Shown here: one piece after another, positions 6,813-62,129 of the stretch | How the letters are laid out: each line of letters begins with the position of its first letter | Numbering within the stretch: position 1 is the first letter of the stretch | From: Sulfurospirillum sp. | Lineage (GTDB): Bacteria; Campylobacterota; Campylobacteria; Campylobacterales; Sulfurospirillaceae | Assembly: GCA_014859685.1 (NCBI GenBank) | Contig: JACUTU010000001.1 | Coordinates: 62,001 to 126,000 of the forward strand | Length of the DNA: 64,000 nucleotides | Direction of reading: 5' to 3' | The notes under the pieces: model-generated | What the model was told of the DNA's origin: nothing | The model's input: the letters and a program-made list of their open reading frames with translations, nothing else | Database searches by the model: none | Position numbers and translations under genes: made by a program

Positions 6813-9071
6813 TTATTGTGTGTTTAGTTTTTTGGACACTAGTTCGTTGAGTACGCTTGGGTTGGCTTTTCCATCTGTCATTTTCAGTACTTGCCCTATG
6901 AAAAAGCCTACGAGTTTAGTATTTCCGGCTTTAAATTTTGCAACATTGTCCGGATTGTTGGCTATAACTTCATCGATGAGTGGGATGATGATGGTAGGGT
7001 CACTTATCTGTGCTAAACCTTTTTTTTGCACGATAGCATCGGGACTTGCTTTGCTATCAAGCATCTCTTCAAACACTTGTTTTGCTATTTTATTTGAGAT
7101 GGTTTCATCATCTACCATTTTTACAAGCTGTGCAACTTGATTTGGAGTAATTTGTATAGTTTCGTTTGTTTTGAACTCTCTTGCAACTTCGTTGGTGATG
7201 ATATTTGCCAAGCTGATGGGCGAATGTAAAACTGATAGTGCCTCTTCAAAAAAGTTTGATAGTTGAGTGTCTCGTGCGAGAATATTTGCTATCTCATGGT
7301 TAAGCCCTAGTTCATTTGTGTACCTAGAAAAGAGGGTGAGTTCAGTTTCACTCATAGGATCTGCCTTGCCCTCGATAACTACTTTTTTTGTTTGTGTTGG
7401 TTTTGTGGCAGGCTTTTTCGTTTCAGTTTTTTTTGCCCATGAGTCTTTCAGCCCCACGATTTTATTGAAAATGGGATGCTCGCTTGTGTAGTCTATCGGG
7501 TCTGCGTAAAAATAGCCTTGTCTTTCAAACTGAAACCGTTCATCTGGTTTTTCATCTATAGCCGCAGGCTCTATGAGCGCATTTTTGATGATGCGTAAAG
7601 AATCTGGATTGAGATCTTCTAAACCCTCTGGCGTGTCAGTTTTGTAAAGTCTTTCATAGAGTCGTATCTCGGCTTTTTTTGCATGCCTACCACTTACCCA
7701 GTGGATAGCACTTTTTACTTTGATCCCGCTTGTGTCATCACCGCTTTTTGAATCTGAATGATACTGTACTTTTATCTCAACTATCTTGCCGTTTGCATCT
7801 TTGATGATTTGCTTACATGTAATGATATAAGCATGCTTGAGTCGTACGCTTTGATTGGGTGTGAGGCGGTAGTATCCTTGTGGCGGATTTTCCATAAAAT
7901 CATCTCGTTCTATGTAGATCTCTTTGGAAAATGGAAGTTTTCTATAACCCTCTTTCGCTACATCGTGTGGATAGTATGATGCCTCTATTTCTTCTGTTTT
8001 ATTGCTATCAAAATTTTCAATAGTGACTTTGAGCGGATCAAGTACGCACATCACTCGTGGTACTTTTTGGTTGAGATCGTCTCGGATACAAAATTCAAGT
8101 TGGGCAACATCAACCATCGAATTGGCTTTGGCAATGCCGATTTGCTCGCAAAAATTGAGAATCGCTTCAGGCGTATAGCCGCGTCTTTTATATCCAGCAA
8201 TCGTAGGAAGTCTTGGATCATCCCAGCCATTTACGAAGCAACCATTTACAAGTTCGAGTAGTTTTCGTTTACTCATAACGGTGTAATTTATATTTAATCT
8301 TGCAAATTCGTATTGGTATGGACGGGTTTTTTCAGGTTCAAGCGTATCGAGTACCCAATCATATAATTCTCGGTTATTTTCAAATTCAAGTGTACAGATA
8401 GAATGCGTTATGCCCTCGATAAAATCCGATAGACAATGTGCAAAATCATACATCGGATATACGCACCATGTATCGCCTGTTCGAAAATGGTGTGCATGGC
8501 GGATGCGATAAATAAGCGGGTCACGCATCTTCATATTTGCAGCACTCATATCTATCTTTGCTCGCAGTACATGCTCGCCATCTTTGAATTCGCCATTTTT
8601 CATACGCTCAAAAAGATTTAAATTTTCTTCGATACTTCGTGTGGCATACTTACTTCTCGTACCACTTTGAGTGACAGTACCACGCAACTGTCGTATCTGT
8701 TCTTCGCTTGCACTATCCACATATGCTTTGCCTAACTTGATGAGTTTGATGGCGTATTCGTAGAGTTTTGGAAAATAATCACTTGCAAAAAAGAGATTTT
8801 CTCCCCATGTATATCCTAGCCAAGTTACCGCATCTTTGAGCGCTTCTACAAAACGCATATCTTCTGTGGTTGGGTTGGTGTCATCCATGCGTAAGTTACA
8901 ATGTCCGCCAAAAGCACGAGCAATACCAAAATTGATGGAGATAGATTTTGCATGTCCGATGTGGGGAAAACCATTTGGTTCAGGAGGAAATCTCGTTACT
9001 ACAGTTTTATATTTTTTTGCTTCTAAATCTTCTTTGACTATCGTGCGTAAAAAATCTTTGCCTTCGCTCAT
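6813..9071 (-). CDS. glnS: Glutaminyl-tRNA synthetase with C-terminal GatB/YqeY-like domain
   Basis: 752 residues. It charges tRNA-Gln directly with glutamine. Seen: RFPPEPNGFPHIGHAKS (class I HIGH motif, residues about 28-44), a eukaryote-like GlnRS Rossmann core with the MDDTNP signature, VMSKRKL (KMSKS equivalent near 265), the anticodon-binding beta barrels to about 555, a Lys/Thr/Pro linker, and a helical tail (about 575-752) with ANIITNEVAREF and NPDNVAKFKAGNTKLVGFFI, typical of the GatB/YqeY tRNA-binding domain. Such a tail is known from Deinococcus GlnRS. Most Campylobacterota that I know make Gln-tRNA through GatCAB and lack GlnRS, so its presence next to an accessory zone suggests transfer. 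The sequence is intact. Confidence 0.92.
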   Translation of the reverse strand: MSEGKDFLRTIVKEDLEAKKYKTVVTRFPPEPNGFPHIGHAKSISINFGIARAFGGHCNLRMDDTNPTTEDMRFVEALKDAVTWLGYTWGENLFFASDYFPKLYEYAIKLIKLGKAYVDSASEEQIRQLRGTVTQSGTRSKYATRSIEENLNLFERMKNGEFKDGEHVLRAKIDMSAANMKMRDPLIYRIRHAHHFRTGDTWCVYPMYDFAHCLSDFIEGITHSICTLEFENNRELYDWVLDTLEPEKTRPYQYEFARLNINYTVMSKRKLLELVNGCFVNGWDDPRLPTIAGYKRRGYTPEAILNFCEQIGIAKANSMVDVAQLEFCIRDDLNQKVPRVMCVLDPLKVTIENFDSNKTEEIEASYYPHDVAKEGYRKLPFSKEIYIERDDFMENPPQGYYRLTPNQSVRLKHAYIITCKQIIKDANGKIVEIKVQYHSDSKSGDDTSGIKVKSAIHWVSGRHAKKAEIRLYERLYKTDTPEGLEDLNPDSLRIIKNALIEPAAIDEKPDERFQFERQGYFYADPIDYTSEHPIFNKIVGLKDSWAKKTETKKPATKPTQTKKVVIEGKADPMSETELTLFSRYTNELGLNHEIANILARDTQLSNFFEEALSVLHSPISLANIITNEVAREFKTNETIQITPNQVAQLVKMVDDETISNKIAKQVFEEMLDSKASPDAIVQKKGLAQISDPTIIIPLIDEVIANNPDNVAKFKAGNTKLVGFFIGQVLKMTDGKANPSVLNELVSKKLNTQ

Positions 9072-39310: not shown

Positions 39311-39976
39311 TTACTCATATATCTCTCGCAAACTAAGCTCATCTAAAATCACGATATTGTTTTCAATAGTGTTAATTATAGCGTTTCTTGTCAATTTTTT
39401 GAGAATTCTTGAGAGTGTTTCTGGCTGGATGTGTAGCATGTACGCTATCTCATGTTTCTTCATAGCGTTGAAATTGTCAAGCTCATGGATGAGCATATGT
39501 GCAACTTTTGCAGTACCATCAAACACAACATCTCTGCTGATGATACATTGCAATCTTTGGATCATTCCAAAAGCTTCTTTGAGGATTGTGTGCATAAAAG
39601 AGGGCTGTGTTCGCATGAGTTGTTTAAAGGTTTGACTATCAAAGATAAGCACTTCACTATCTTCTAAAAATTCAGCATTGGCGTAACAGCTGATTATAAA
39701 ATTATCACAGAGTTTTGAAGCAGAAAATATGAGAGAATTTTTTGAAAGCTTATACAAAAAGATCTCATTTTCAAAACGGTCAACTTTGTAAAATTTTAAG
39801 CTACCACTTGTGATATAGTAGATCTCTTCTTTGTCTTCTTTTTCATAAAATAAGATATCCATAGCTGAGAATTGCTTGATCTTTACAGCTTTGCAAAGTT
39901 GTTCAAGTATGATCGCATCAAGCCCTTGAAATAGCGGAATCTCTTGCAAATATTTTTTAATCTCTCTAGTTTCCAT
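39311..39976 (-). CDS. Crp/Fnr-family transcriptional regulator (nap-proximal)
   Basis: 221 residues. N-terminal cyclic-nucleotide-like beta roll (about 10-125), a dimer helix, and a C-terminal HTH with HEIAYMLHIQPETLSRILKK. The recognition helix has E-x-x-S-R, the FNR-type reading of TTGAT. The four-cysteine Fe-S cluster of FNR is absent (the Cys residues are scattered), so it does not sense oxygen in the FNR way; DNR/NssR-type NO or nitrite responses are possible. A consensus box TTGAT-ACAA-ATCAA lies upstream at class II spacing, so it is probably self-regulated. It is co-transcribed with the NIT-type sensor. Confidence 0.85.
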   Translation of the reverse strand: METREIKKYLQEIPLFQGLDAIILEQLCKAVKIKQFSAMDILFYEKEDKEEIYYITSGSLKFYKVDRFENEIFLYKLSKNSLIFSASKLCDNFIISCYANAEFLEDSEVLIFDSQTFKQLMRTQPSFMHTILKEAFGMIQRLQCIISRDVVFDGTAKVAHMLIHELDNFNAMKKHEIAYMLHIQPETLSRILKKLTRNAIINTIENNIVILDELSLREIYE

Positions 39977-40008: not shown

Positions 40009-40050
40009 ATTATATTATAAGTATAATTTTTTAGCATTGATACAAATCAA
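40009..40050 (-). promoter_or_regulatory. FNR-type box and -10 of the Crp/Fnr-NIT-sensor operon
   Basis: A consensus dyad TTGAT-ACAA-ATCAA lies at 40037-40050. On the minus strand TATAAT occurs at 40009-40014 (22 nt after the box, ideal for class II activation near -41.5), and again at 40014-40019. The operon start is at 39976. The box is seen directly; activation is inferred. Confidence 0.75.
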
Positions 40051-40604: not shown

Positions 40605-40955
40605 TTAAAGTTTCTTTTTCAAATCGCCATGATAATTTATCTTCTCAGCAGTTATGCTATCATCGTTGAGCATACTTGGCACAATATCACTATGTTCTAG
40701 TTTTTCTCTTTCTCTATCGAGTTCATCTTCACTGTAAGAAAGCATCATTTCAGCACTTATTACATGTGCAATTGCTTCGATTGATTGCACCTTTTTCATC
40801 TCTTCATCTATACCCTCACCATCTACGGTTACTATGATCTTGCCGATACTTGCATCGTGAAAATGATAATCACAAAAATCGCAATTTTTGACAATTTGCA
40901 GTATCTCATCTATGTGTTGGCTCTTGGCTTGTATCACTATACTTGAAACATTCAT
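40605..40955 (-). CDS. napD: NapD, Tat-signal chaperone for NapA
   Basis: 116 residues from ATG 40955, preceded by GGAG; a longer start at 40967 is less likely. The N-terminal ferredoxin-like fold begins MNVSSIVIQAKSQHIDEI and includes GKIIVTVDGEG and AHVISAEMMLSYSEDE, the NapD pattern. NapD binds the NapA twin-arginine signal peptide and holds back export until the cofactor is in. It has a C-terminal tail of about 30 residues longer than E. coli NapD. Overlaps napL by 4 nt. Confidence 0.88.
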   Translation of the reverse strand: MNVSSIVIQAKSQHIDEILQIVKNCDFCDYHFHDASIGKIIVTVDGEGIDEEMKKVQSIEAIAHVISAEMMLSYSEDELDREREKLEHSDIVPSMLNDDSITAEKINYHGDLKKKL

Positions 40956-41908
40956 GGTAAACTCCATTTCATTATAAATTTATCATCACTACCGCTAAAA
41001 AGGGTATGTTCATCTTGAAAAACAATGCTGTTGAGTGTGCTTTTTTGTCCTACTAACAAGTGCAATGCTTTTGAGTTTGCAACATCAAAAATAGCGATAT
41101 CGTTTTTCTCATTGATAGCAAAAGCAGCCTTTTTTGCACGGGGACTCAAAGCGCCGGCATAAATTAAAAAAGGTGCATCAAATCGTTTGTAGCTCTCATT
41201 TGCAATGTTATAAATAATGCCCCTGCGATCTTGCCCAGCAGCCAAAGCATAACCATTTGTTATATCAACTTTATAGATATTGTCCACATTGCCGCCTTTG
41301 AGAATTGATGATACTTCTCCCTTGTCGATGTAAATCACAAAAATTTCACCAGATTCACCTGCTGTGATAACTTGTATTTTTCCCTCATCAAGCATAAAAT
41401 CTGAAAAATGAGATAAACTCACCTGAAAACGGTAAATCTCTTTTTGCTTTGTGATATCAAAAAGTATGACCTCATGACTTAAAAGTGCTAAAAAAACCCT
41501 ATTGCTATCAACAAATTTTGCTTTTGCAATGTAGAGTTTTTGAGAACTGTTGATGAGTTTTGTGTGCGTTTTACCCTTTACATGTAAGAGTTCTCTTGAA
41601 CCATTACTTGCTTGCACAACGGCAAGATACGCATCGCTTGACGCATCAAAATCTACAGAAAAAATCTTTGGTTTCATCATATCGCCCATAAAATCTTTGA
41701 TATCTCCAAAGAGTATCTCAAAAGTTTTTGCATGAGTATTTGTATCGAAAACTTCAATGCTGCCAGCGTCATTGGCGATGATGAGCGAATTTTTATGTAC
41801 AAGTAAATCTTGCACATTTCCACGAGCTTCGATCACGGCTGTTGGTTGTAAATTCACTGCAAATGCAGATGACCACAAAGCAAAAAGAATTATAAAAAAT
41901 CGCATCAT
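40952..41908 (-). CDS. napL: NapL, periplasmic WD40-like protein of the nap operon
   Basis: 318 residues. Cleavable signal peptide (RFFIILFALWSSAFA), then repeated strands in a beta-propeller-like pattern (SIEVFDTNTHAKTFEIL, EVILFDITKQKEIYRF, DIAIFDVANSKALHLL, ending LFSGSDDKFIMKWSL, close to a WD repeat). This is NapL, found only in Campylobacterota-type nap operons, of unclear but accessory role in nitrate reduction. It overlaps napF by 4 nt and napD by 4 nt. An exact TTACATGTAA at 41578 is read as Leu-Leu-His-Val-Lys. Confidence 0.87.
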   Translation of the reverse strand: MMRFFIILFALWSSAFAVNLQPTAVIEARGNVQDLLVHKNSLIIANDAGSIEVFDTNTHAKTFEILFGDIKDFMGDMMKPKIFSVDFDASSDAYLAVVQASNGSRELLHVKGKTHTKLINSSQKLYIAKAKFVDSNRVFLALLSHEVILFDITKQKEIYRFQVSLSHFSDFMLDEGKIQVITAGESGEIFVIYIDKGEVSSILKGGNVDNIYKVDITNGYALAAGQDRRGIIYNIANESYKRFDAPFLIYAGALSPRAKKAAFAINEKNDIAIFDVANSKALHLLVGQKSTLNSIVFQDEHTLFSGSDDKFIMKWSLP

Positions 41909-42405
41909 TGTCTCGCTCCTTTTATCTCAAGTGCATCGCTTGGACATACGCTCACACACATACCGCAATTTGTGCAAGACTCTTTTTTGATGATTGGACG
42001 AAAGACCCCAAAAAATTGTATAGCCCGCTCGTTACACGCATCCAAACAACTACTGCACATGACGCTTTGCCACGCAAGACATTTTTGCGTACTGATACTA
42101 AAAGTTGCTTGAATCCGCATATCCTTACATGTAAGGCTTAAAACTGCACCCATACATGTAAGCGCACATTTTTCACAATAAGTACAACCATTTTGATCAA
42201 ATACAAGTGCCGCTAAACCCTCTTTGTCTATAAAGATGATCTTCTCATTGCAAGCATTTACGCATGGTTTGTCTATACATGCAGGGCATTTTTGGTTAAA
42301 AAGTTCTATTTGATCACAATAAGGCGGTCGCACAATGCTCGTGTCTGTTTTTTTGAACCGTGATGCAAAGGAGGAAAAAACCTCCCTTCTTTGCATATTG
42401 CGCAT
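41905..42405 (-). CDS. napF: NapF, polyferredoxin
   Basis: 166 residues. Several [4Fe-4S] motifs are present: CPACIDKPCVNAC, CTYCEKCALTC, CSSCLDAC and CTNCGMCVSVCPSDAL. There is no signal peptide, so it is cytoplasmic as in other NapF proteins, which are thought to assist NapA cofactor assembly. A degenerate twin-arginine-like RFKK lies near the start but without a hydrophobic stretch. The gene begins one base after the napB stop. Two palindrome copies lie in it (42125 exact, 42152 variant), both falling at cysteine codons. Confidence 0.88.
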   Translation of the reverse strand: MRNMQRREVFSSFASRFKKTDTSIVRPPYCDQIELFNQKCPACIDKPCVNACNEKIIFIDKEGLAALVFDQNGCTYCEKCALTCMGAVLSLTCKDMRIQATFSISTQKCLAWQSVMCSSCLDACNERAIQFFGVFRPIIKKESCTNCGMCVSVCPSDALEIKGARQ

Positions 42406-43011
42406 CTATTTTATACCTTCGTTAAGATTGTCGATCAAATTTGAACTGCTGATGCCATTTTTTGAGCGAAAATCTGGTTGGAACTCATTTGCCACGAGTG
42501 GTTCATTGTTTGATTGTGGTACATGGCATGCTGAACAATTATATCGCTCCATGCTCACGCCTTCTCTTTTGTGCATTGCTGTGAGTACATCTGTTGAATT
42601 CCTGATTATTTTTCCCTCTTTGATCACTTCTCCATTTGCTCCAAGTTGTGTCAGCGGTCTAAATGACGCAAGGTGACTAAGCGGCGTTGGGGTTGCTTGG
42701 ACATCTTTTGCAACTGCTGGATCATGACATCCTAAGCAAGAGTTATAATCTCCCGTAATAGGCAACATTCCCTCGATATCGTGAGGAATCATCGGCGGTG
42801 CATTTTCAAAAGATCTTTGGATTAATTTTGACTCACCAGCCGCTGCCTGTGTATAATCAGTTGCATCAGGCACTACTGTTTTTTCAGAGTAGAGATCTAC
42901 TTTACGCAAACCCAACTCTTCTTCGTGGTAAGCATTGCCTACAACCGCGCAACCACTTACGATAAATGCTAACATCGCAACACTTATAATCCATGTTTTC
43001 TTACTAAACAT
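42406..43011 (-). CDS. napB: NapB, diheme cytochrome c subunit of periplasmic nitrate reductase
   Basis: 201 residues. An N-terminal signal (KKTWIISVAMLAFIVSGCAVVG) holds a lipobox-like SGC, so it may be lipid-anchored or cleaved. Two heme c motifs are visible, CLGCH near residue 94 and CSACH near 160, with additional histidines (ATPTPLSHLASFRPL, TAMHKREG) as distal ligands. NapB passes electrons from the NapGH quinol oxidase to NapA in the periplasm. It lies 8 nt after napH. Confidence 0.92.
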   Translation of the reverse strand: MFSKKTWIISVAMLAFIVSGCAVVGNAYHEEELGLRKVDLYSEKTVVPDATDYTQAAAGESKLIQRSFENAPPMIPHDIEGMLPITGDYNSCLGCHDPAVAKDVQATPTPLSHLASFRPLTQLGANGEVIKEGKIIRNSTDVLTAMHKREGVSMERYNCSACHVPQSNNEPLVANEFQPDFRSKNGISSSNLIDNLNEGIK

Positions 43012-43019
43012 TTTCTCTC

Positions 43020-43838
43020 CTATCCGTTTTTATTGATATAATTTCGTACACCAAATGCTAGAGCATTGTCTTGGCAAACCTCTATGCATCGACCACAATT
43101 TGTACATTCGCCCCACACGATATCGCCACTTTTTTTACCTATGATATCGAGGACTTGTTTTTCAGGGCAGACAGCTTTGCATTGCATACAAAGCGTACAA
43201 TTTGGCTGGTTGTGTTTTACTCTCAAAAGGCTTTGTTTCGCACTTAAAGAGTAAAAAGCACCTAAAGGGCAGATGTGTCCACACCAACCATTTTTTACCG
43301 CAAATAGGTCAAAAAGAAAAATACAAGTAACAGCAGCCACGCCCATACCCATACCAAAAACAATGCCTCGATGTAGCATTGAAATGGGTGATACCATTTC
43401 AAAAGCAGCAATGCCGGTTATAAATGATAGGATAAGCGTGAGTCCTAAAACCCAGAAGCGAACACTTTTACCTAGCCAAATTTTTCGTTCAACCCCCTCA
43501 AGATATAAAATCTTTCGAAGATAATTTGCACTATCTGTGATGATATTGATAGGGCAAATCCACGAGCAAAAAGCGCGTCCTGCAAAGAGAGCATAAAAAG
43601 CAAATATGATTGCACCACCAATGAGAACATCCGATGCTAGCAACGCCCCCGCACTGAACATTTGCAAAAGAGCAAATGGATCTGCAAGAGGAATAGTTTT
43701 GAAAAGCAAAGAAGCACTTAAATTGCCCTGCAAAATTTTCCAACCATAGGCATTGGCAGCAAAATACAAAAACAAAATACTCAGTTGCGAAACTCTTCGT
43801 AAAAGTAAAAATCTATAATTTTTGAAAAAATTACTCAT
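43020..43838 (-). CDS. napH: NapH, membrane quinol dehydrogenase subunit
   Basis: 272 residues from ATG 43838, overlapping the napG stop by 8 nt; a reading from 43886 would lie inside napG. Four membrane helices, the FCSWICPINIITDSANY cytoplasmic C-x-x-x-C-P motif, CGHICPLGAFYSL, and two C-terminal ferredoxin clusters (CTLCMQCKAVCPEKQV and CTNCGRCIEVCQDNAL). With NapG it oxidises menaquinol and feeds NapB/NapA, replacing NapC, which is absent here as usual for this phylum. Confidence 0.93.
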   Translation of the reverse strand: MSNFFKNYRFLLLRRVSQLSILFLYFAANAYGWKILQGNLSASLLFKTIPLADPFALLQMFSAGALLASDVLIGGAIIFAFYALFAGRAFCSWICPINIITDSANYLRKILYLEGVERKIWLGKSVRFWVLGLTLILSFITGIAAFEMVSPISMLHRGIVFGMGMGVAAVTCIFLFDLFAVKNGWCGHICPLGAFYSLSAKQSLLRVKHNQPNCTLCMQCKAVCPEKQVLDIIGKKSGDIVWGECTNCGRCIEVCQDNALAFGVRNYINKNG

Positions 43839-44655
43839 CGAAAATTCCTTTGTCACTGTTGAGGTAATCTTGTGGTGCAAGTTCACTTCTTTTTGTTTTT
43901 GTTGTCACATCACTTGAGACGCCATCAAGGCGTGATTCATCATTTTTGTCCCAGCCTTTGATGTAGTGATCTGCGATGTCTCCTTTTGCAAGAGCTGTTG
44001 GAAGCACAAAAATAGCTGCTTTTTTTGTGATACAAGCACGCTCGCACATACCACAACCTGTGCAAATATCACTCACAACTTTTGGCACGAGATACGCATG
44101 TTTACCTGTTCGTGCATTTCTTTTGTATTCAAGCGTTATTGCCTCATCTAGCAATGGACAAGCTCTATAGCAAGCATCACATTGAATGCCCCAATACGCT
44201 ACGCACGATTCCTCATCTACAACAGCGAGTCCCATCTTTGCTTTCTCTATATCCAAAACTTTTTGTCCATCTTTGAGTGATGAAACTTTGTCAGCTTCAA
44301 GCGCTCCTGTTGGACACGCTGGTACACATGGTATATCTGTGCACATGTAACAAGGTTTTTGTCTTGGTATAAAATATGGTGTTCCCATAGGTTTATTGTC
44401 CCCTGGCTTAGCAAGATGCAAAGTATCATATGGGCATGCTTCAACACATTGCCCACACTTGATACATGCACGCAAAAAATCAAACTCTTGCAATGCTCCT
44501 GGTGGACGCAAAATCAATGGTGATGCTTTTGCTTCTTGCAAATAACCGCTCCAAATCATACCACCCAAGGCAGACAATCCGATACTTTGTGCCATAAGTG
44601 ATATGAATTTTCTTCTATCACTTATGACTATTTTCTTTTTATTAAGATTGCTCAA
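43831..44655 (-). CDS. napG: NapG, periplasmic ferredoxin-type quinol dehydrogenase subunit
   Basis: 274 residues. Twin-arginine signal SDRRKFISLMAQSIGLSALG at the N-terminus, then four [4Fe-4S] motifs: CIKCGQCVEACPYDTL, CYMCTDIPCVPACPTGAL, CDACYRACPL and CTGCGMCERACITKKA. It is exported by Tat and docks on NapH. It lies 26 nt after napA. The variant GCACATGTAA at 44341 sits in the second cluster. Confidence 0.94.
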   Translation of the reverse strand: MSNLNKKKIVISDRRKFISLMAQSIGLSALGGMIWSGYLQEAKASPLILRPPGALQEFDFLRACIKCGQCVEACPYDTLHLAKPGDNKPMGTPYFIPRQKPCYMCTDIPCVPACPTGALEADKVSSLKDGQKVLDIEKAKMGLAVVDEESCVAYWGIQCDACYRACPLLDEAITLEYKRNARTGKHAYLVPKVVSDICTGCGMCERACITKKAAIFVLPTALAKGDIADHYIKGWDKNDESRLDGVSSDVTTKTKRSELAPQDYLNSDKGIFDE

Positions 44656-44681
44656 AACAATCTCCTTTTTGCATAATTTAT

Positions 44682-47501
44682 TTACGCTTTATAGAGCTTA
44701 ACAGCACATTTTTTATAGTCTGTTTGTTTTGACATTGGACAAGTTGCATCCAAACAAACTTTGTTGATAAATACTTTTTCATCAAACCAAGGCACGAAGA
44801 TAAGTCCTCTTGGCGTTCTATTTCTGCCTCTTGTCTCTACTCTGGCTTTGACTTTTCCACGACGAGATTCGATCCAAATAGTTTGACCTTGGATAAAACC
44901 TTTTGCACTCGCATCTTCTGGATGCATATAGCAAAGTGCTTCAGGAACAGCACGGTAAAGTTCAGGAACTCTCATAGTCATCGTGCCACTATGCCAATGT
45001 TCAAGCACACGGCCAGTACACATCCAAGTATCAAACTGTGCATCTGGCATCTCTGGCGGATCCATATAAGGTCTTGCAAAAATTTTGGCTTTGTTTTTCA
45101 AAGACTGTTTTGTTTTGTTGGTAATATTTTGCAAATCGCCTTGTGCCAACTCTTTTGCTATAGGTCCATAGAATGCAAACTCAGCACCATTGGCAGCTTT
45201 TGCGGCATATGGGTCATACTTTGCATTAAATCTCCATTGCGTTTCTTTGCCATCAACAACTGGCCATTTGAGTCCTCTTACTCTGTGGTAAGTGTCAAAA
45301 TCAGCCAAGTCGTGTGCGTGACCCCTTCCAAAGTTTGCATACTCTTCAAAAAGGTATTTGTGTAAGAAATAGCCATATCCTTCAAATACTTTGCCATCAC
45401 TTCCTACCACTTTTCTGCTATCGCCGATACATTCAGAATTATCAAAACCAGCTTGAATCGGATCATTTGCATCTATTTTGAAAGATTTTGCTTGCTCATT
45501 GCCAAAAAGAATTTCGTACATAGTTGTATCTTCACTGTATCCCATTTTTTTCGCATCTTCTATAACGCTTGGGAGTTTTTTAGGGCTTCCATCAGCATTT
45601 TTTCCACGAAGTGGTTGCTCACCCCATACATCTTTTACTGTAAATCTTTTTGAAAATTCAACCCACTGCCAAGTATCACTCATCGCATCGCCAACTGGAA
45701 GCACTTGTTGTTTCCAAAGTTGCGTTCTTCGCTCAGCGTTGCCATATCCGCCCCATTTTTCATAGATCATAGCACTTGGCAAGATGAGATCACTGACTTT
45801 TGCAGAAATTCCCGGGTAGCCATCAGAACAAACGATAAAATTATCCATTTGTCTTGCGGCTTTGATCCAATGGTTTGCATTGGCTGAATCTTGGTATGGA
45901 TTGCACACATTAACCCATGCAAATTTTACAACTCCATCTTCGATATCTCTGTGGATTTTCATGATGTGTTGGTTGCCTACGGGATTGAGTGTTTTTGCAG
46001 GTATTTTCCAGACTTTTTCGACTATTTCTCTGTGTTTTGGCACCGCCACCATCATATCAGCTGGAAGTCTATGACAAAATGTTCCAACTTCACGAGCCGT
46101 ACCGCAAGCACTTGGTTGTCCTGTGAGTGAAAACGCGCCTGAACCTGGTTTTGCTTGTTTGCCTAGTAAGAAGTGGACATTGTAGGAAAGTGTATTGACC
46201 CAAGTTCCTCTTGTGTGTTGGTTCATACCCATAGTCCAAAAACTTACTATTTTTCTGTTTTTTTCAACATAAAGGTTTGCAAGCATTTGAAGTTTTTTCT
46301 TAAACTCTTCGATATCTTCTAGTGGATCGCCTTTTGAAATAGTAGCAACATAATCAAGCGTATATGGTGCTAAAAATTTTTTATATTCTTCAAAACTTAT
46401 TTGCCAATGTTTTAAGCCTTGATCTTTGTTTTGCATCATATCACCCACTTTGTAACCAAATGGCTCAAGTGCAGGTGCTTCTTTTGCAGAAACTTCTTTT
46501 TGCATCTCTTTGTTTACGATCTCAAGTTCTTTGTCTGAATATTTGCCCTCTTTTATTGATTTTTCATCACTTCTTCGCATACCATAGCCTATATTTACAG
46601 GCTGAGAAGCAAATACGATGTGCTTATTTACAAAATCCCAATCAATGGCTTCTGGATGATTGTATACGATCTCTCTTGCTATGTAATTCCAAAGAGCTAA
46701 GTCGGTGTTTGGAGAAAATATGATCTCAATATCTGCAAGATCTGAACATCTGTGCGTGTAGGTAGAGATGTTGATAACTTTTACGCGATCTGGATCTGTG
46801 AGTTTACGATCACTTACGCGAGACCAAAGAATAGGGTGCATTTCGGCCATATTTGCGCCCCAAGTTACGATAGTGTCGGTAAGCTCGATATCATCATAAC
46901 ATCCACTAGGCTCATCGATACCAAATGTTTGGTAAAATCCCACAACCGCACTTGCCATACAATGTCTTGCGTTTGGATCTAATGCGTTTGATCGGAAACC
47001 ACCCTTCATCATCTTTTGCGCTGCATAACCTTCCATGATTGTGTATTGACCAGAAGCAAACACAGCAACGCCCTCAGGGCCACTTGCTTTGAGTGCTTTT
47101 TTGGCGTGAAATTCCATCTCATCAAAAGCTCGTTGCCAGCTTATCGGTTTGAACTTGCCATTTTTGTCAAACTCACCTTTGTCATTCATACGCAAAAGAG
47201 GTTGTTTGAGTCTATCGGCACCGTACATAATTTTTGCATTAAAATAGCCCTTGATACAGTTGAGCCCACGATTTACAGGAGCTGCTGGATCACCTTTAAC
47301 CGCAACGATTTTGCCCTCTTTTGTAGCAACCATGATACCACAACCAGTACCGCAGAAACGACAAACTGCTTTATCCCATCTCCAATCAGCTTGCGTTTGC
47401 GCTGCTGCTGCTTGAGCTGATTGTGGAATGCTAATCCCCACCGCTGCTGCTGCACTTGCTGCTGCTGTTGTCTTTAAAAAGTCTCTTCTTGAAAGCGACA
47501 T
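44682..47501 (-). CDS. napA: NapA, catalytic subunit of periplasmic nitrate reductase
   Basis: 939 residues. Tat signal [20 protein letters not shown], then the [4Fe-4S] site [20 protein letters not shown] near residue 47, and the molybdenum ligand Cys in [18 protein letters not shown] near 178 (Cys codon, not Sec). It has the large insertions usual in Campylobacterota NapA (E. coli NapA is about 828). It reduces nitrate to nitrite in the periplasm with bis-MGD. First gene of napAGHBFLD plus the PAS gene. A 380-nt spacer upstream holds a Crp/Fnr-like dyad and two structured repeats. No exact TTACATGTAA occurs in the gene. Confidence 0.97.
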
Positions 47502-47600: not shown

Positions 47601-47692
47601 GAGGGGGCAGTAGAGACTTACGAACGCGTTTGTTTCAATGCGTAACATCAATCACAAACCAAATTGTACTCCTTAGCCAAAAGAGAAATCTA

Positions 47693-47704
47693 TGACTTAG
47701 GTCA
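47693..47704. promoter_or_regulatory. Crp/Fnr-like dyad upstream of napA
   Basis: TGACTTAGGTCA is a TGAC-N4-GTCA dyad (minus strand TTTGACCTAAGTCATAG), a close variant of TTGAT-N4-ATCAA. It lies about 190 nt before napA and between the inverted repeats at 47543 and 47741. It may bind one of the two Crp/Fnr regulators in the window. The rest of the 47502-47881 spacer shows no gene. Confidence 0.45.
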
Positions 47705-47740
47705 AATATTACAAAAAGAACAAATGTCCCTACGACCCCC

Positions 47741-47881: not shown

Positions 47882-49591
47882 TTATGAAGAGCAACTTACA
47901 TGTGAAACACCGGCAATATTGAAGAGTTCATGAGGTTTTCTTTTGTAGTATTTCTCTTCAATCTCACTCGATAATTCAGCGTAAGGGTTGTTCATCACTT
48001 CTTGCAATTCATAAATAAGACCATAATCTCCTTTTGCAGCTTGCAAGTAAGCAGGAACTAAAAACCACTCTCGTAATGTGTATTTGGGGTTGATGGATTG
48101 CATCTTTTTTGCAAGTATTTCACGAGATACGGATGCGTTTATGCTGAGAGCTGATCGCCATTTTTGAAGCCACTGTGTCCAGCGTTTTAAGAGTGCTTCA
48201 TCGTGCATATTTTCATGATAAAAGCTTTTTGTAAGCAGTGTTATATCTTCAGGCACCCAAGAAAGTTCCCTGAAAAAAATCGTATAATCAACTTCAGTCT
48301 CAATCATAAGCTCCATAAGCTCATTAAAAAGAGTTGCATCAAAGTTTTGCAAGCCTAATTTGGCAGTCCACATGGCACGCAAAGACTCTTGCATCGTCTT
48401 AAAAAAATCATTTCTAATTTGTTCCAATTTATCCTGTGCATCGTGATCTAGTAGTGGTTTGAGAGCTAGGCATACCATTGCAAAATTTTGTTCAGCTGCT
48501 TTTGGCTGGTTAAAAAAAGAGAAATGCACACCGCCACCAGTCCAAGGCTGATATCGTGGATCAAACGCATCTATAAAGCCAAAAGGACCAAAATCTAGCG
48601 TATAGCCACCTATTGCACAGTTATCGCTATTGAAATTTCCTTGACAGTACCCTACACGGATCCAATTTGCAACAAGTGATGTAAGTCTATTTTGAAATTC
48701 TTTTGCAAATAAAAGCACTTTTTCTTCAAATGGCAGATGTTGGTCGATTTCTTTATTGTATTCGCGTTCTATCGCATGTAAAACGATTTTTTTAAGCTCG
48801 TTTAGTGCATGAGGATGCTCAGATTTACGCGCACGCCTGCCAAAAAGTTCTAGCTGCCCTACGCGCAAAAATGAGGAAGCAACGCGTGTATTGACGGCAA
48901 CCGCTTCCTCGATCATGATTTCTGGATCTTTAGAGTAAGAACCCTGCCTAAACCATGGGCGGCTGACAGTTTCGGAAGTAGAAACATAGAGGCTCAAAGA
49001 ACGAGATGTTGGTATGCCAAGAGCGTGCATATGTTCTTGTGCTAAAAATTCACGCACGCTTGAGCGAAGTACAGCTTTGCCGTCCGCACCCCTACAATAG
49101 GGAGTTTTTCCTCCGCCTTTGAGCTGCATTTCCCAACGATTGCCATCAATAACTGCTTCGAGTATAGAAATCGCACGCCCATCACCATATCCATTGCCTG
49201 TGCCAAATGGACATTGATCATAGTATTCATGACCATATATAGAAAGGGCATAGCCACACGCCCAGCCCAGTTTTTTCATAGGCTCCGGAAGCATTGAAGT
49301 ATCGCCGCTAAACATCCTCATAAATGGCTCGCAAGTTGCTAGGGTATCTGAAAAACCAAGTTCACGAAAAAAATTCTTACTGTGTATGATGTATCGAGGA
49401 TTTTTGATGGGCGTAGGTTTTACGGGAACAAAATGACCACTCAATACTTCTCTTGAATGATGATCCACACCATCTTTGGTAGCTTTCGGATCAGCATTCA
49501 AGCTATTTAAAAGCGAGTAGTCTGCATATTTTGCAAGATCATCAAGGGATTTTATGGTAGTTTTATTGCTATGATTATAATTTGTACGCAT
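47882..49591 (-). CDS. selO: SelO/YdiU-family protein AMPylase
   Basis: 569 residues, full length for the UPF0061 family. SelO is a pseudokinase that transfers AMP to Ser, Thr or Tyr of target proteins and affects redox stress responses. Seen: [19 protein letters not shown] (family start), [30 protein letters not shown] (nucleotide site), [30 protein letters not shown], and [20 protein letters not shown], which replaces the kinase catalytic and DFG loops. It ends S-C-S-S; the Cys (codon TGC) sits where some eukaryotic SelO proteins carry selenocysteine. It follows the second Crp/Fnr gene by 72 nt and may share its transcript. Confidence 0.93.
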
Positions 49592-49663: not shown

Positions 49664-50305
49664 TTAGCTGAAAAGTTCGCTAAGAAGATCTTTGTTGATG
49701 ATGTTTATCTCGTTTGCCGCATTACTGTCGATGATTTTTTGTTTTTTAAATTTGCCCAAAGTTCTTGAGAGTGTTTCTGGAGTGATGTTGAGCAAGGCGG
49801 CTATTTGTGTTTGTTTGAGTTCGTTAAAGAGTTTTTCATTTTCAAAAAGAAATTTGGCGATTTTGCCCTCAGAAGTGAGAACTACCTCGTTGGTGATCAC
49901 TTCTGACATGATTTTGAGTTTTGCGGCAAGGGATTTGATGATACTGATCGAAATATCTGGATTTTTAAAAAAATTTTCCTCTAGTTTTTTATAATCAATA
50001 CGCATCACCTCACCTTTTGTGCTAAACTCAGCACTCGCAGGGTAGGGCATTGACTCAAAATTTGCCAATTCTGCTACAAGATTGATCGGTCTAAAAGTAT
50101 GCAAAAAGATTTGCGCACCTTTGAAGTTTGTCTTATACAATCGTAGCGTGCCACTAAGTAAAATATACATGTAAATAGGCGCATCACCCTCATAGAAAAG
50201 TATCTCTTTGACATTGTAAGAGTGTACGCTTGAAATCTCTCTAAGCTTATCAATACTTGCATCATCGAGTTTTGCAAACAGCGGAATTTGGCGAATATTG
50301 TGCAT
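49664..50305 (-). CDS. Crp/Fnr-family transcriptional regulator (second)
   Basis: 213 residues with a cyclic-nucleotide-like beta roll (EILFYEGDAPIYMYILLSGT) and C-terminal HTH KQTQIAALLNITPETLSRTL. The E-T-L-S-R recognition helix predicts TTGAT-type sites, the same as the regulator at 39311. No FNR cysteine cluster is present. It is the last gene of the operon beginning at 52831, whose promoter has a consensus FNR-type box, so autoregulation is likely. Only 2 nt separate it from the FmdE-like gene. Signal unknown; a DNR/NssR-like response to NO is a reasonable guess. Confidence 0.84.
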   Translation of the reverse strand: MHNIRQIPLFAKLDDASIDKLREISSVHSYNVKEILFYEGDAPIYMYILLSGTLRLYKTNFKGAQIFLHTFRPINLVAELANFESMPYPASAEFSTKGEVMRIDYKKLEENFFKNPDISISIIKSLAAKLKIMSEVITNEVVLTSEGKIAKFLFENEKLFNELKQTQIAALLNITPETLSRTLGKFKKQKIIDSNAANEINIINKDLLSELFS

Positions 50306-50307
50306 GA

Positions 50308-50922
50308 TTATCCTTGCTTTAAAGTCACCATCTTATCATTTTTTGCATTGTCTATCAAGATTTTTTTGACGCGTTCTTGCCACAGTTTGCCAAACTCCCC
50401 TTTTTCTTCTGCACTAGCTTGCAAGCTCATAACTTTAGGCATCAACGCTTGCAATTTCGCACTTGGTGGTACACAACTAGGATCATACGCCACTTGTACG
50501 CTTGCGTTTGTATCAACCCTAATAAACCTTACATGTAAGTCAATGGCAACACCAAAATCCATCAACGAATGCCTTGCAAAATTGCCATTGATTCCCTTAA
50601 ATCCACTCTCTTTCGTAGCTCCTGTGATATTTGAGATGACATTTGAGATCACGCCTGTGACTCCCTGTGTTAAACTATCTTTGAATTCCACTTGTATGCC
50701 ACCACGAAGCGGCAGACTATCTGGGTATAAAACCTCCAAAGCTCGCTTACATGTAAGGTATGCTCCGGCTACAGTTGGGCAACTATGCCCCGCCGCTTTT
50801 ACTATCTGTTTATAATTAAACTTGATGATTCCACCTTTTACGCTTCCCAATATCTCGGCAAGCGGATCATATAAAATGATAGGTGCAACATCGTTGAAAA
50901 ATTGTGGAAAATTTTCTTGCAT
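50308..50922 (-). CDS. FmdE-like protein
   Basis: 204 residues, no signal peptide. The motif KAAGHSCPTVAGAYLTCKRA near residue 44 matches the G-H-x-C-P-x-x-x-x-G of FmdE-type proteins (named after a subunit gene of formylmethanofuran dehydrogenase but found widely), and the later DPSCVPPSAKL adds a possible second Cys ligand. Metal or cofactor binding is likely; the reaction is unknown. It sits between the DUF59 gene (1 nt) and the Crp/Fnr gene (2 nt) in one operon. Two palindromes (50529, 50747) supply Leu-His-Val and Leu-Thr-Cys-Lys. Confidence 0.65.
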   Translation of the reverse strand: MQENFPQFFNDVAPIILYDPLAEILGSVKGGIIKFNYKQIVKAAGHSCPTVAGAYLTCKRALEVLYPDSLPLRGGIQVEFKDSLTQGVTGVISNVISNITGATKESGFKGINGNFARHSLMDFGVAIDLHVRFIRVDTNASVQVAYDPSCVPPSAKLQALMPKVMSLQASAEEKGEFGKLWQERVKKILIDNAKNDKMVTLKQG

Positions 50923-50923
50923 T

Positions 50924-51220
50924 TTAGGCTCCTAATGCTTTTTTGACTTCTTCGCTTGCCATCGTGATATTCCAAGCTGGCTCCCAAACGATTGTAACTT
51001 CACAACTCTCAACCCCATCAAGTCTTTCAACAGCTTCTCTTGTCCATGTTTGGATAAGTTCATGCAAAGGGCAACCTCTTGTAGAAAGTGTCATGGTAAC
51101 GCTTACATGTGAGTCCTCAACCGCTACGCCATAAATCAATCCAAGCGAGTAGATATCAAATCCAACTTCTGGGTCTATTACCGTTTTTATCGCTTCTATT
51201 ACGCTGTGTTCATTGAGCAT
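50924..51220 (-). CDS. MIP18/DUF59-family iron-sulfur assembly protein
   Basis: 98 residues. The family pattern is complete: VIEAIKTVIDPEVGFDIYSL, GLIYGVAVEDSHVSVTMTLS, TRGCPLHELIQTWTREAV and VTIVWEPAWNITMASEE, with the reactive Cys in TRGCP. DUF59 proteins (SufT, PaaD-like) help mature Fe-S proteins. In this operon it may serve an Fe-S or heme-iron client such as the FmdE-like protein. It overlaps the upstream membrane-protein gene by 11 nt. Confidence 0.88.
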   Translation of the reverse strand: MLNEHSVIEAIKTVIDPEVGFDIYSLGLIYGVAVEDSHVSVTMTLSTRGCPLHELIQTWTREAVERLDGVESCEVTIVWEPAWNITMASEEVKKALGA

Positions 51221-52499
51221 TTGTTGCTTCCTTTTTAGGTTTGAATGTTAATGTAAAATAGATATTGTCTATCACCAAAAGTGTTCCGATGCCCATAATG
51301 ACAGAGGCTATTGCAAATGTCAAGTAACTTGTAAAAATGATACCAACACAGCCAAGCGCCATTCCTACAAATGTAATGAAAAATTGCACATCAGCCTGTT
51401 TTTCTTTTATCATCTGGTTTAGCATTGGAACTTTCATCTTACCCACAAGTGGAGAAAATCGCTGGTACCAAACCAAAAATGGCAGTATTTTATAGATATG
51501 TCCCACGATAAAAAAAAGTAAAAATCCAAAAAAGAATAAAAATCCAAAAAGGATAAAATACTTTTGCTCACTGCTAAATATACCCACAAAAAATACCACT
51601 ATACATGTAAGCAGTGTAAAAAAAGAAGCTATCATATTTTTGGCCCAAAAATCATTTTGGCGTCGTATCCTAGCTCTAAATATATCAAACATCTGTAAAA
51701 TCGCAAGTAGCATGGCAAAAGCACTCAAGGCAACACCCGTATAAAAAAGCTCGCTTACATGGAAGAGTTCTGCGACTAGCAAAACACTGAGTCCTGTGAT
51801 TATGGCATAAAAAGCCCATTTTATTTTTTGCTGGCTATAGCCGTGCGAAAGCGAGAACATAGGCAATAACACCATTGCGACACCCATAATGCTCATTATC
51901 ACATACCCAAAAATAGTCGTAGCAATGTGTATTTTGGCTAAACTCATCAAGTCTGGATAGAACCCATAGAGCAAATTAAGTGCCATGAAAAATCCCACGC
52001 TAGAACCGATAAACAAAAAGACATTGGATGCAAAGATATATTTTGCAACGATATCAAAGCGCTCTAAGTTTTTGTAAGTCAAAAAGATATTTGCTACAAA
52101 GATGAGCATAGAAAGATAGATCATCATCGCACCATAAGGCACCACAGCCATATATTTATCCACGCCCAAACCAAAGCAAAAAAGTATAATTCCACCCAAA
52201 AAAAGATAAAACTGTACATATGCAAAATCTTTTGAAAAGACAGGAATTTCAAGTACCACGGGAATGAGCTGATACATGGCTCCAAAGATGGTCATCATCA
52301 CAAACCCCAAAAGATACAGGTGGATGAGCGAAGCCATAGAGGATGAGAGAAAATACCCATCAATCTCATTTGCATAAAATGGCAACAAAAAAGCACTCAC
52401 GGCATAAAAAATCGCAGCAGCTATAAAATAATGTGCCACAAGAACAAACGGTGGCGCCATCTGTGTGGCAAGGTTGCGTGCCATCTTTAGCCCATACAA
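51210..52499 (-). CDS. Heme-copper-oxidase subunit I/NnrS-like polytopic membrane protein
   Basis: 429 residues, about 12 membrane helices. Histidines are placed as in heme-copper oxidase subunit I or NnrS relatives: VLVAHYFIAAAIF in helix 1, SLIHLYLLGFVMMTIFGAMY in helix 2, LAKIHIATTIFGYVIMSIMG in helix 6 and LFFIVGHIYKILPFLVWYQR later. The full CuB ligand set of a true oxidase (H-x-x-x-Y or HH pairs) is not apparent, so it is more likely a heme-binding NO-related or assembly protein. It is second in the FNR-box operon after the DUF2249 gene (overlapping it by 13 nt; ATG 52484 is an alternative start). Confidence 0.6.
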   Translation of the reverse strand: MYGLKMARNLATQMAPPFVLVAHYFIAAAIFYAVSAFLLPFYANEIDGYFLSSSMASLIHLYLLGFVMMTIFGAMYQLIPVVLEIPVFSKDFAYVQFYLFLGGIILFCFGLGVDKYMAVVPYGAMMIYLSMLIFVANIFLTYKNLERFDIVAKYIFASNVFLFIGSSVGFFMALNLLYGFYPDLMSLAKIHIATTIFGYVIMSIMGVAMVLLPMFSLSHGYSQQKIKWAFYAIITGLSVLLVAELFHVSELFYTGVALSAFAMLLAILQMFDIFRARIRRQNDFWAKNMIASFFTLLTCIVVFFVGIFSSEQKYFILFGFLFFFGFLLFFIVGHIYKILPFLVWYQRFSPLVGKMKVPMLNQMIKEKQADVQFFITFVGMALGCVGIIFTSYLTFAIASVIMGIGTLLVIDNIYFTLTFKPKKEATNAQ

Positions 52500-52831
52500 C
52501 TAGCATCGTTCAAATCAGCAAGTTCACTCAACCCTTTTTTGTAAAAAATCTCCAATTTTACTTTGCCATTTTCAAGTTTGCTCTCTTGAACTTCAAAGTT
52601 TTTATCGATTTTAGGGTATAAGCCCATCGGACTTTTGTGGTTGATCATGATAAGTTTTGTACACTCATCTTTGATCATCGCTAGCCCTAACATCGCATTT
52701 ACCATCGGCTCTGGCGGCACACAAGTTGAACTATCAAATTCTATCACACGCATACCATCTTGCTCATATTCAAAAAAAGGAACACTTGCTCCCTCTACAT
52801 GTAAGGCTTTTTTAAATGAAGACATATTCAC
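52487..52831 (-). CDS. DUF2249-like (TusA-fold) protein
   Basis: 114 residues (112 from ATG 52825). The pattern MRVIEFDSSTCVPPEPMVNA (C-x-P-P-E-P-M), KLIMINHKSPMGLYPKID and KLEIFYKKG follows the TusA-like DUF2249 fold, with Cys and Pro residues at the position used for sulfur transfer in TusA. First gene of the five-gene operon; CTACATGTAA at 52795 is near its start. DUF2249 genes often accompany denitrification and NO-response genes as I recall. Role here is inferred from context. Confidence 0.68.
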   Translation of the reverse strand: MNMSSFKKALHVEGASVPFFEYEQDGMRVIEFDSSTCVPPEPMVNAMLGLAMIKDECTKLIMINHKSPMGLYPKIDKNFEVQESKLENGKVKLEIFYKKGLSELADLNDASCMG

Positions 52832-52850
52832 TCCTATTTATTTTTGAAAC

Positions 52851-52893
52851 ATTATATACAAGAGTGGCGGTTAGAAACATTGATTTGTATCAA
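52851..52893 (-). promoter_or_regulatory. FNR-type box and -10 of the DUF2249-FmdE-Crp operon
   Basis: TTGAT-TTGT-ATCAA lies at 52880-52893, and a perfect minus-strand TATAAT at 52851-52856, 23 nt apart, which fits class II activation. The operon starts at 52831. The box overlaps the last codons of the neighbouring SprA-like gene. Confidence 0.78.
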
Positions 52894-60709: not shown

Positions 60710-62129
60710 TCTACACAATATAAACATAGAGCGGTCGATTTTAAGCTCGGTATTTTTTACCCCATCAGTGTTTGAAGATGTAGCTGCTCTTTTAAAGCCA
60801 AAAGATTTTTACCTGCCATCGCACCGTTATATCTTTGAAGCGATGGAGGAATGTGAACGAGATGATTTGCCTATCGATGAAGAGTTTGTGAAAAAAAAAC
60901 TCCATCATGAGGGAAGATTTGATGAGCAAGCAATGCTTGAAATTCTCTCAACAAATCCACTTCCAGCACTCAAAGCATATGTGCAAGAGATCCGTGAAAA
61001 GTCTATCAAAAGAGAACTTGTAGCACTTACTGTGGACATAAAAGATGTCACTGTCGATAAAGATTTGCCATCACACGAAGTGCTTGATTTGGTGCAACAA
61101 AAACTCTATCAGATAACAAACGACAGTGGCACAAAAGAGTTTCGAGAATCCCCCGAAATGACACGCTCCACTATAGAGCATATTTTAGCGATGAAGCAGC
61201 GAGGCAACGCTGGAATTGTCGGTGTGGATACTGGTTTTCGCGAGATAAACAAACTCACAACTGGTTTTGGCGATGGAGATCTTATCATTGTGGCAGCACG
61301 GCCAGCAATGGGAAAAACGGCTTTTTGTCTGAACTTAGCGCAAAAGGCACTCGATGATGGCAGAGGAGTTGCGATATTTTCACTTGAGATGCCAGCTGAA
61401 CAGTTGATGCTTCGGATGTTAAGTGCAAAAACTTCCATTCCTTTACAAAAATTAAAAGTTGGCGATATGAATGATGAGGAGTGGGAACGACTCAACAGTG
61501 CGGCATCGACGATGAGTGAAAAGCAATTTTTTGTTGATGACAATGGCAATGTGACCATTCACAATGTCCGTGCAAAACTGCGAAAACTTAAAACACAACA
61601 TCCTGAAATCTCACTCGCCATTATCGATTATATTCAACTTATGAGTTCAGGCGGAAACAAAGATAGACACTTGGAAGTAAGCGATATATCAAGGGGCTTA
61701 AAGCTTTTGGCTCGTGAACTCAATATACCTATCATCGGACTTTCACAACTCAACCGTGGACTTGAAAGTAGGAGCGATAAACGACCAATGCTGAGCGACC
61801 TTCGAGAATCAGGTGCTATCGAACAAGATGCGGATCTTATTATGTTTGTGTATAGAGATGATGTATACCGCATTCGTGAAGAGAAAGAAAAAGAGCAAAA
61901 AGCACGCGTTGATGGCAGAGATTATAAGAGTAATTTTTTTGAAAAACCAGAAGAACAGGCTGAAGTTATCATCGGTAAAAACAGAAATGGTCCTGTCGGT
62001 GTTGCCAATCTTGTGTTCCAAAAAGCATGCACAAGATTTGTAGATTCTGGCGGTATTCCTGTGCAATATATCTATAATGATAGCAACATAGATAGCAAAG
62101 AAGCTAGTATAGAACTTCCAAAACTGTGA
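60702..62129 (+). CDS. dnaB: Replicative DNA helicase DnaB
   Basis: 475 residues. N-terminal helical domain ([20 protein letters not shown]), a linker helix, then the RecA-like domain with Walker [17 protein letters not shown] near residue 205, [18 protein letters not shown], Walker [15 protein letters not shown] near 310, [20 protein letters not shown] and [15 protein letters not shown]. Hexameric helicase that unwinds the fork. It starts inside the end of ispG (8-nt overlap) and its TGA overlaps the comEC GTG. Confidence 0.97.

Follow-up and report, generated by a model that had tools for sequence, protein, structure and literature searches.

What could a DUF2249 protein, an oxidase-like membrane protein, an iron-sulfur assembly factor, an FmdE-like protein and a transcriptional regulator do together? 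The question is raised by a run of five closely spaced genes on the minus strand of a Sulfurospirillum sp. contig (JACUTU010000001.1). The window is the whole stretch that we analysed, 64,000 nt long (contig positions 62,001 to 126,000), and plain coordinates below refer to it. A preliminary description had proposed a self-regulated operon at 49664-52893 and had guessed at a link to nitrate and nitric oxide (NO) metabolism. We believe that the module to which these genes belong probably assists nitrate respiration and denitrification in bacteria and archaea. The evidence for this setting is good, whereas the biochemistry is what we infer. Our best full explanation, to which we give somewhat less than an even chance, is that it is the Campylobacterota form of an accessory module that tends or senses metal centres exposed to NO. 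The module accompanies well-charted enzymes of denitrification and nitrate respiration in Campylobacterota, Thermus, rhizobia and haloarchaea without having a known role of its own. With one unit, one type of regulator and one pair of predicted heme ligands, the function of these orphan genes becomes directly testable.

The operon and its conserved core

The first gene (52487-52825) encodes a small DUF2249-like protein of 112 residues, placed by the Pfam matches of its family and by a SirA-like fold. After a gap of 2 nt comes a membrane protein of 424 residues with 12 transmembrane helices (TM1 to TM12) and a heme-copper-oxidase fold, assigned from structure and alignment; its gene starts at an ATG (51210-52484), and an alternative TTG start at 52499 is possible. 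The third gene overlaps it by 11 nt and encodes a DUF59 protein (FeS_assembly_P, MIP18-like) of 98 residues (50924-51220), identified by Pfam. One nucleotide further lies the gene for an FmdE-like protein of 204 residues (50308-50922), in which H46 and C48 are invariant, and after another 2 nt the run closes with a Crp/Fnr-superfamily regulator of 213 residues (49664-50305). All five genes lie on the minus strand. Tight spacing and a core conserved across Campylobacterota agree with the single operon-like cluster described before.

Conservation was assessed in 199 genomes of the order. The membrane protein had a match in 120 of them, 98 of which fall in a closer group (E <= 1e-37, a cut set after viewing the match list); the remainder carry a paralogue. 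In a synteny survey of 80 named loci, DUF2249 was directly upstream of the membrane protein gene in 75 of 77 testable loci and DUF59 was downstream in 71 of 76; an expected neighbour was missing in L085, L087, L097, L104, L112, L127, L130 and L161. The preliminary description had said beforehand that its proposal would fall if the neighbourhood was not conserved outside this genome, and these counts uphold it. As judged by this comparison, DUF2249, the membrane protein and DUF59 form one conserved unit. FmdE is a less constant member: 27 of 80 loci have it after the core and in the same orientation. The complete five-gene order recurs in L090 and in L083, where the regulator is split into two open reading frames (ORFs). 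In L083, the nearest named relative, these ORFs of 85 and 114 residues lie at 7000-7600. Additionally, eight other loci (cluster c6) encode a shorter DUF1858-DUF2249 (DrpB-like) protein close to the core. One metagenome bin that carries the module (L131) is titled Helicobacter pylori PMSS1, a title that looks doubtful.

The core is also found outside the phylum. A tblastn search of plasmids gave 112 records, of which we inspected seven, one of them (Aliarcobacter butzleri) from Campylobacterota. In Thermus the order is nar operon, drpA, drpB, a hypothetical gene, protoglobin, membrane protein and DUF59. In Sinorhizobium meliloti, norCBQD, hemN and pirin precede DUF2249, the membrane protein and a second DUF2249 gene, and nnrS, nirK, a formylglycine-type protein and a Crp/Fnr gene follow. 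Haloprofundus has nirK, three DUF2249 genes and the membrane protein; on a second plasmid from the same search the membrane protein gene lies near a hemerythrin/DUF542 pair and DUF2249 genes. Aminobacter has nosRZDFYL, an FAD:protein FMN transferase, the membrane protein, DUF2249 and DUF59, and Haloferax larsenii has a cbb3-type subunit I annotation, with halocyanin and DUF2249 close by. Comparison within and beyond Campylobacterota thus shows the core in the company of nar, nap, nir, nor or nos genes in several phyla. In Aliarcobacter butzleri (L166) it lies on a plasmid amid transposase genes, which suggests that it can move.

The regulator and its box

The regulator had been described as fitting an FNR-type site through an E-x-x-S-R recognition helix. 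The helix is present. However, the protein contains no cysteine at all, and so lacks the ligands of the [4Fe-4S] cluster that define FNR; the FNR label was therefore dropped, and we regard the protein as Nss/DNR-like. It has no Fe-S cysteines, it has the E-x-x-S-R helix, and its predicted target TTGA-N6-TCAA stands before the operon. The Nss regulators NssA, NssB and NssC of Wolinella and NssR of Campylobacter jejuni have the same box, a likeness seen in box and motif. They are reported to control nitrate, nitrite and nitrous oxide (N2O) reductases (PMC6682613).

A perfect box, TTGATACAAATCAA (TTGAT-N4-ATCAA; 52880-52893, minus strand), precedes the operon and overlaps the final codons of a SprA-like gene upstream, which ends at 52890. 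As stated before, a TATAAT -10 element (52851-52856, minus strand) follows 23 nt past it; no -35 element is listed at this promoter. The spacing from box to -10 would fit a class II activator promoter. Counted from the -10, transcription should start about 49 nt past the box's first base. A similar distance is reported from Nitrosophilus labii, of the same phylum, where exact Nss-type boxes lie 48-49 nt before predicted starts (PMC11539149).

Could the box be there by chance? The form with one mismatch is not enriched in the window (10 sites vs 8.2 expected), and nine of the 12 perfect sites in the genome lie within ORFs. Thus, a single box proves little on its own. Conservation across relatives shows that the box is real: in 40 of 73 relatives' loci a perfect TTGA-N6-TCAA lies within 120 nt of the DUF2249 gene, against a mean of 0.32 and a maximum of 2 in 200 shuffles. 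Most of these boxes stand 51-57 nt upstream, and the 40 have 27 different spacers. One could suppose that these genes are neighbours by accident or for housekeeping reasons and that the box, too, is accidental. The nine sites inside ORFs would favour this view, but it is already contradicted by the conservation of both gene order and box, and we give it practically no weight.

The same motif is found elsewhere in these loci. It occurs before 27 of 209 other genes that have 60 nt or more of free DNA upstream, and some of the 27 may be denitrification genes. In several loci without a box at DUF2249, an extra gene for a small CopD-like membrane protein (below cut-off) precedes DUF2249, and TTGA-N6-TCAA or a near-perfect box precedes that gene in L101, L102, L107, L109 and L110. 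In five relatives napA has perfect boxes 27-65 nt upstream, and the napA box of L090 matches at 7 of 8 positions, at 58 nt. Sequence comparison thus shows an Nss/DNR-type box at the operon, and boxes of this type stand before napA in relatives as well.

Self-regulation appears to be a local arrangement, since the regulator adjoins the core in some lineages only. Regulator genes are directly upstream of the core on the same strand in 10 loci (for example L084, L086 and L113) and downstream of it in L083 and L090. In most relatives the last gene of the unit is not the regulator, and a box ahead of the regulator gene itself is mostly absent. The five-gene form with its putative self-regulation is thus a lineage variant and not the general form.

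The membrane protein

The AlphaFold2 model of the membrane protein (mean pLDDT 92.4) has 12 long helices arranged in three four-helix units. In VIA-align it matches cbb3 CcoN (8smr) with Z 35.0 over 387 residues (root-mean-square deviation 3.0, 12% identity) and NorB (4xyd) with Z 32.8 over 378 residues (3.4). It shares with both, over almost its whole chain, the 12-TM fold of the catalytic subunit of heme-copper oxidases and NO reductases. Its Pfam score of 29.2 is just under the cut-off of 34.8; among 65 homologues, COX1 matched 37 and NnrS none, a missing match being weak evidence. PDB sequence searches with alignments of the membrane protein, DUF2249 and FmdE gave no match at E <= 0.1.

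Heme-copper oxidases hold their metals with six histidines, located in TM2, TM6, the HH pair of TM7 and the HxH of TM10. The histidine-conservation check that had been suggested for this protein was run. Among 65 close homologues H55, H186, H329 and K332 are invariant. In a wider alignment of 18 bacterial and archaeal sequences (eight close homologues, four paralogues and six sequences from other phyla), H55 in TM2 and H186 in TM6 are the sole histidines kept in all 18. Q72, Y331 and a PF-[LI]-x-W motif are also kept; the H329 position is M, Q, S, K or T outside the close homologues. The six-histidine set is absent, whereas CcoN relatives retain all six. Unlike CcoN, the membrane protein lacks the ligands of copper and high-spin heme, and its second conserved histidine is in TM6 and not in TM10. 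This ligand comparison was drawn against CcoN; the longest ORF of L202, in the NO reductase set, is not NorB. Thus, of the heme-copper label given before, the fold stands and the copper and high-spin heme ligands do not.

Unit-by-unit profile comparison showed that the three four-helix units resemble one another and that each is closest to the last, third unit of CcoN. H55 and H186 both align with the low-spin heme ligand of that unit, and in the third unit of the membrane protein F315 takes the equivalent place. A circular permutation of the oxidase fold was considered when Pfam placed the second unit on COX1's first; it is unsupported because all three units are nearest to CcoN's third. The natural reading of model and alignment is one bis-histidine heme, without copper or high-spin heme. 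As no histidines but these two are shared by all aligned homologues, the protein probably binds one heme and is neither an oxidase nor an NO reductase.

These results bear on the proposal that the membrane protein is an NO detoxification enzyme, a reduced relative of heme-copper oxidases and NO reductases that consumes NO. Its fold, with Z 32.8 to NorB, and its tracking of NirS and NosZ (see below) are what such an enzyme might show. Against this, the TM7 HH pair and the TM10 H-x-H have no counterpart, only H55 and H186 being kept in 18/18, and the genome already has a qNor (G000:C7, about 193.4-195.6 kb, L170), which is preceded by a small Rrf2-like ORF, as seen by eye. An NO reductase is unlikely, and we consider NO detoxification by this protein improbable.

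The family itself is probably not new. Pei et al. in 2014 reportedly described heme-copper oxidase homology (HCOH) proteins, NnrS among them, which occur in the context of denitrification and have the oxidase fold with three 4-TM units and a conserved pair of histidines; the present protein is a candidate member of one of their families. PMC11218638 cites that work. The paralogous membrane protein mentioned above is at most 24% identical (L045, L065, L066, L068-L071, L073-L076 and others). It is often accompanied by a hemerythrin gene and sometimes by a short DUF2249 gene, and 15 of 16 paralogues have Met in the place of H329.

Denitrification context and proposed role

The link to nitrate and NO metabolism was borne out by synteny and by co-occurrence in the 199 genomes, counts that are not corrected for kinship. 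The 98 genomes with the closer membrane protein include 93 with NapA, 72 with NirS and 71 with NosZ; among the 101 others the numbers are 66, 5 and 8. NirS or NosZ is present in 84 of 98 genomes with the protein vs 11 of 101 without it, and among NapA-positive genomes in 80 of 93 vs 10 of 66. By these counts the module tracks the metabolism of NO and N2O more closely than it tracks nitrate reduction by itself. A link to Hcp was unsupported (20 of 98 with the membrane protein vs 36 of 101 without). In the source genome neither NirS nor Hcp was found over threshold.

Is the module dedicated to NapA, maturing its molybdenum centre through the sulfur and metal handling of a TusA-like DUF2249 protein, DUF59 and FmdE? 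FmdE does adjoin napA in relatives. In L101, L105, L109 and L113 the strand that carries FmdE runs on into napAGHB, in L148 FmdE is back to back with napA, and in L090 the five genes are followed by a second Crp/Fnr regulator and, two genes further, napAG. Among 89 of 108 FmdE genomes, with 55 NapA places, 54 FmdE/napA pairs were on one contig and 23 within 4 kb. Additionally, of the three perfect boxes that are intergenic in this genome, the third (G000:C23:114992-115005; L012, L172) is just upstream of a gene that looks, by eye, like MoaB/Mog of molybdenum cofactor synthesis. However, the membrane protein is absent from 66 of 159 NapA genomes, and outside the phylum the core also lies beside nirK/nor or nos genes with no nitrate reductase in view. 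The cysteine beside the PP motif of the DUF2249 family is C in 29, T in 5, S in 4 and V in 1 of 39 proteins, so that the TusA-type residue is missing in 10 of 39. Dedication to NapA is therefore doubtful in our view.

The same cysteine led us to reject the TusA-like sulfur carrier that had been suggested, because the acceptor residue beside the CPxP-type motif is not conserved; the TusA model PF01206 matches 3 of 39 relatives, weakly. A C-terminal cysteine, C110, is kept in 39/39. The DUF2249 model PF10006 matches 26 of 39 aligned relatives (E <= 0.05), and the window protein has no Pfam match of its own. The predicted fold resembles SirA-like 3hz7 (TM-score 0.76 of the target, Foldseek E 0.16), with no Foldseek match at E <= 0.001. 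The DUF59 protein, with an invariant C50 and a W-E-P motif, scores 66.6 bits against FeS_assembly_P (cut-off 23.5), as expected of the Fe-S assembly factor it was taken for. The supposedly Cys-rich FmdE-like protein has three cysteines in total. It scores 22.6 bits against the FmdE model PF02663, just short of the cut-off of 22.9, and 21/21 relatives match at E <= 0.01.

One of the closest known systems is that of Thermus. PMC6282519 reports that DrpA (DUF2249) and DrpB (DUF1858-DUF2249-DUF2249) are both needed together for growth on nitrate, that the double mutant has nitrate reductase structural components at about the wild-type level and little activity, and that nitrate control of nar and dnr is lost in drp mutants. 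In Haloferax mediterranei all four DUF2249 genes or proteins are raised under denitrification (PMC11218638). The drpAB region likewise has DUF2249, a homologous membrane protein, DUF59 and a nitrate reductase neighbour, and a Crp-family regulator without Fe-S (PMC6282519; PMC7694296). Unlike Thermus, the window operon contains an FmdE-like protein and its own Crp regulator, and has Nap instead of Nar; it has no counterpart of DrpB, and so is not a Drp system proper.

As proposed for DrpA and DrpB, the membrane heme protein and DUF2249 could form a sensor module that detects nitrate or NO and signals to Nss-type regulators. Regulator genes adjoin the core in a number of relatives, and the loss of nitrate control in Thermus drp mutants (PMC6282519) agrees with this. 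But regulator adjacency is sporadic, DUF59 and FmdE are not signalling families, and in Thermus the double mutation costs enzyme activity too, which the authors describe as an additional level of control required for maturation (same source). We consider pure sensing possible yet rather unlikely, and less probable than the care of metal centres, our tentative first choice; the two may be joined. We prefer the care of NO-exposed centres because of the Thermus and Haloferax data, the hemerythrin partners of the paralogue, the presence of DUF59 and the NO-type box. Enzyme maturation or protection is thus an alternative reading of the Thermus 'nitrate sensor' results.

We propose the following model for the care of metal centres. 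An Nss-type regulator that responds to nitrate or NO would turn the operon on and, as its own gene closes the operon, would raise its own level. The membrane protein would hold one heme b between H55 in TM2 and H186 in TM6. This heme may bind NO or receive a redox signal, without reducing NO. Together with the membrane protein, DUF2249, DUF59 and FmdE-like proteins, as cytosolic partners, would mature or repair the iron-sulfur or molybdenum centres of enzymes exposed to NO, and Nap may be the foremost client in this lineage. In a more specific form, a single bis-histidine heme moved to the TM2/TM6 interface would have converted a core for electron transfer into a membrane receptor for NO or redox state that drives cytosolic repair by DUF2249, DUF59 and FmdE-like proteins, one machine common to denitrifying bacteria and archaea. 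The heme was placed there from pseudo-symmetry (the H55/H186 alignment and F315) and not from coordinates, and we hold this form to be a long shot. That interface is not known to carry a cofactor in oxidases and NO reductases.

Several points weigh against the care of metal centres. The evidence for the heme consists of two histidines and a fold. Nap is not a general client, given the nirK/nor and nos neighbourhoods outside the phylum. There are also the 66 NapA genomes without the membrane protein. The co-occurrence counts carry the kinship of the genomes with them, and for family f11 the NosZ link is weak by eye. The authors of the Thermus work interpreted their results chiefly in terms of nitrate sensing (PMC6282519). 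Lastly, our searches of the literature, mainly open access and from which we claim no absence from print, found no experiments on the operon or on any homologue of the membrane protein; only the Thermus and haloarchaeal papers were directly relevant. The module's parts and context are already known or partly known. In the same literature we did not find stated the core unit common to Campylobacterota, Thermus, rhizobia and haloarchaea, the conservation of the Nss-type box, the FmdE-nap link or the loss of catalytic ligands.

The flanks of the operon hold related features. A periplasmic nitrate reductase (nap) cluster, recognized from translations, lies on the minus strand at 40605-47501 with napA first and over cut-off; an imperfect box, TTGACCTAAGTCAT (7 of 8 positions; 47692-47705, minus strand), stands 190 nt upstream of napA. 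Downstream of the cluster is a second Crp/Fnr regulator (39311-39976, minus strand), with HTH_Crp_2 over cut-off; the genome has two such proteins, both within the window. A second perfect box, identical to that of the operon, lies 61 nt upstream of this gene (40037-40050, minus strand), and a PAS-domain gene lies between the nap cluster and this box. On the other side of nap, selO (47882-49591) begins 72 nt after the operon; the gap has no terminator-like site listed, and read-through into selO is conceivable.

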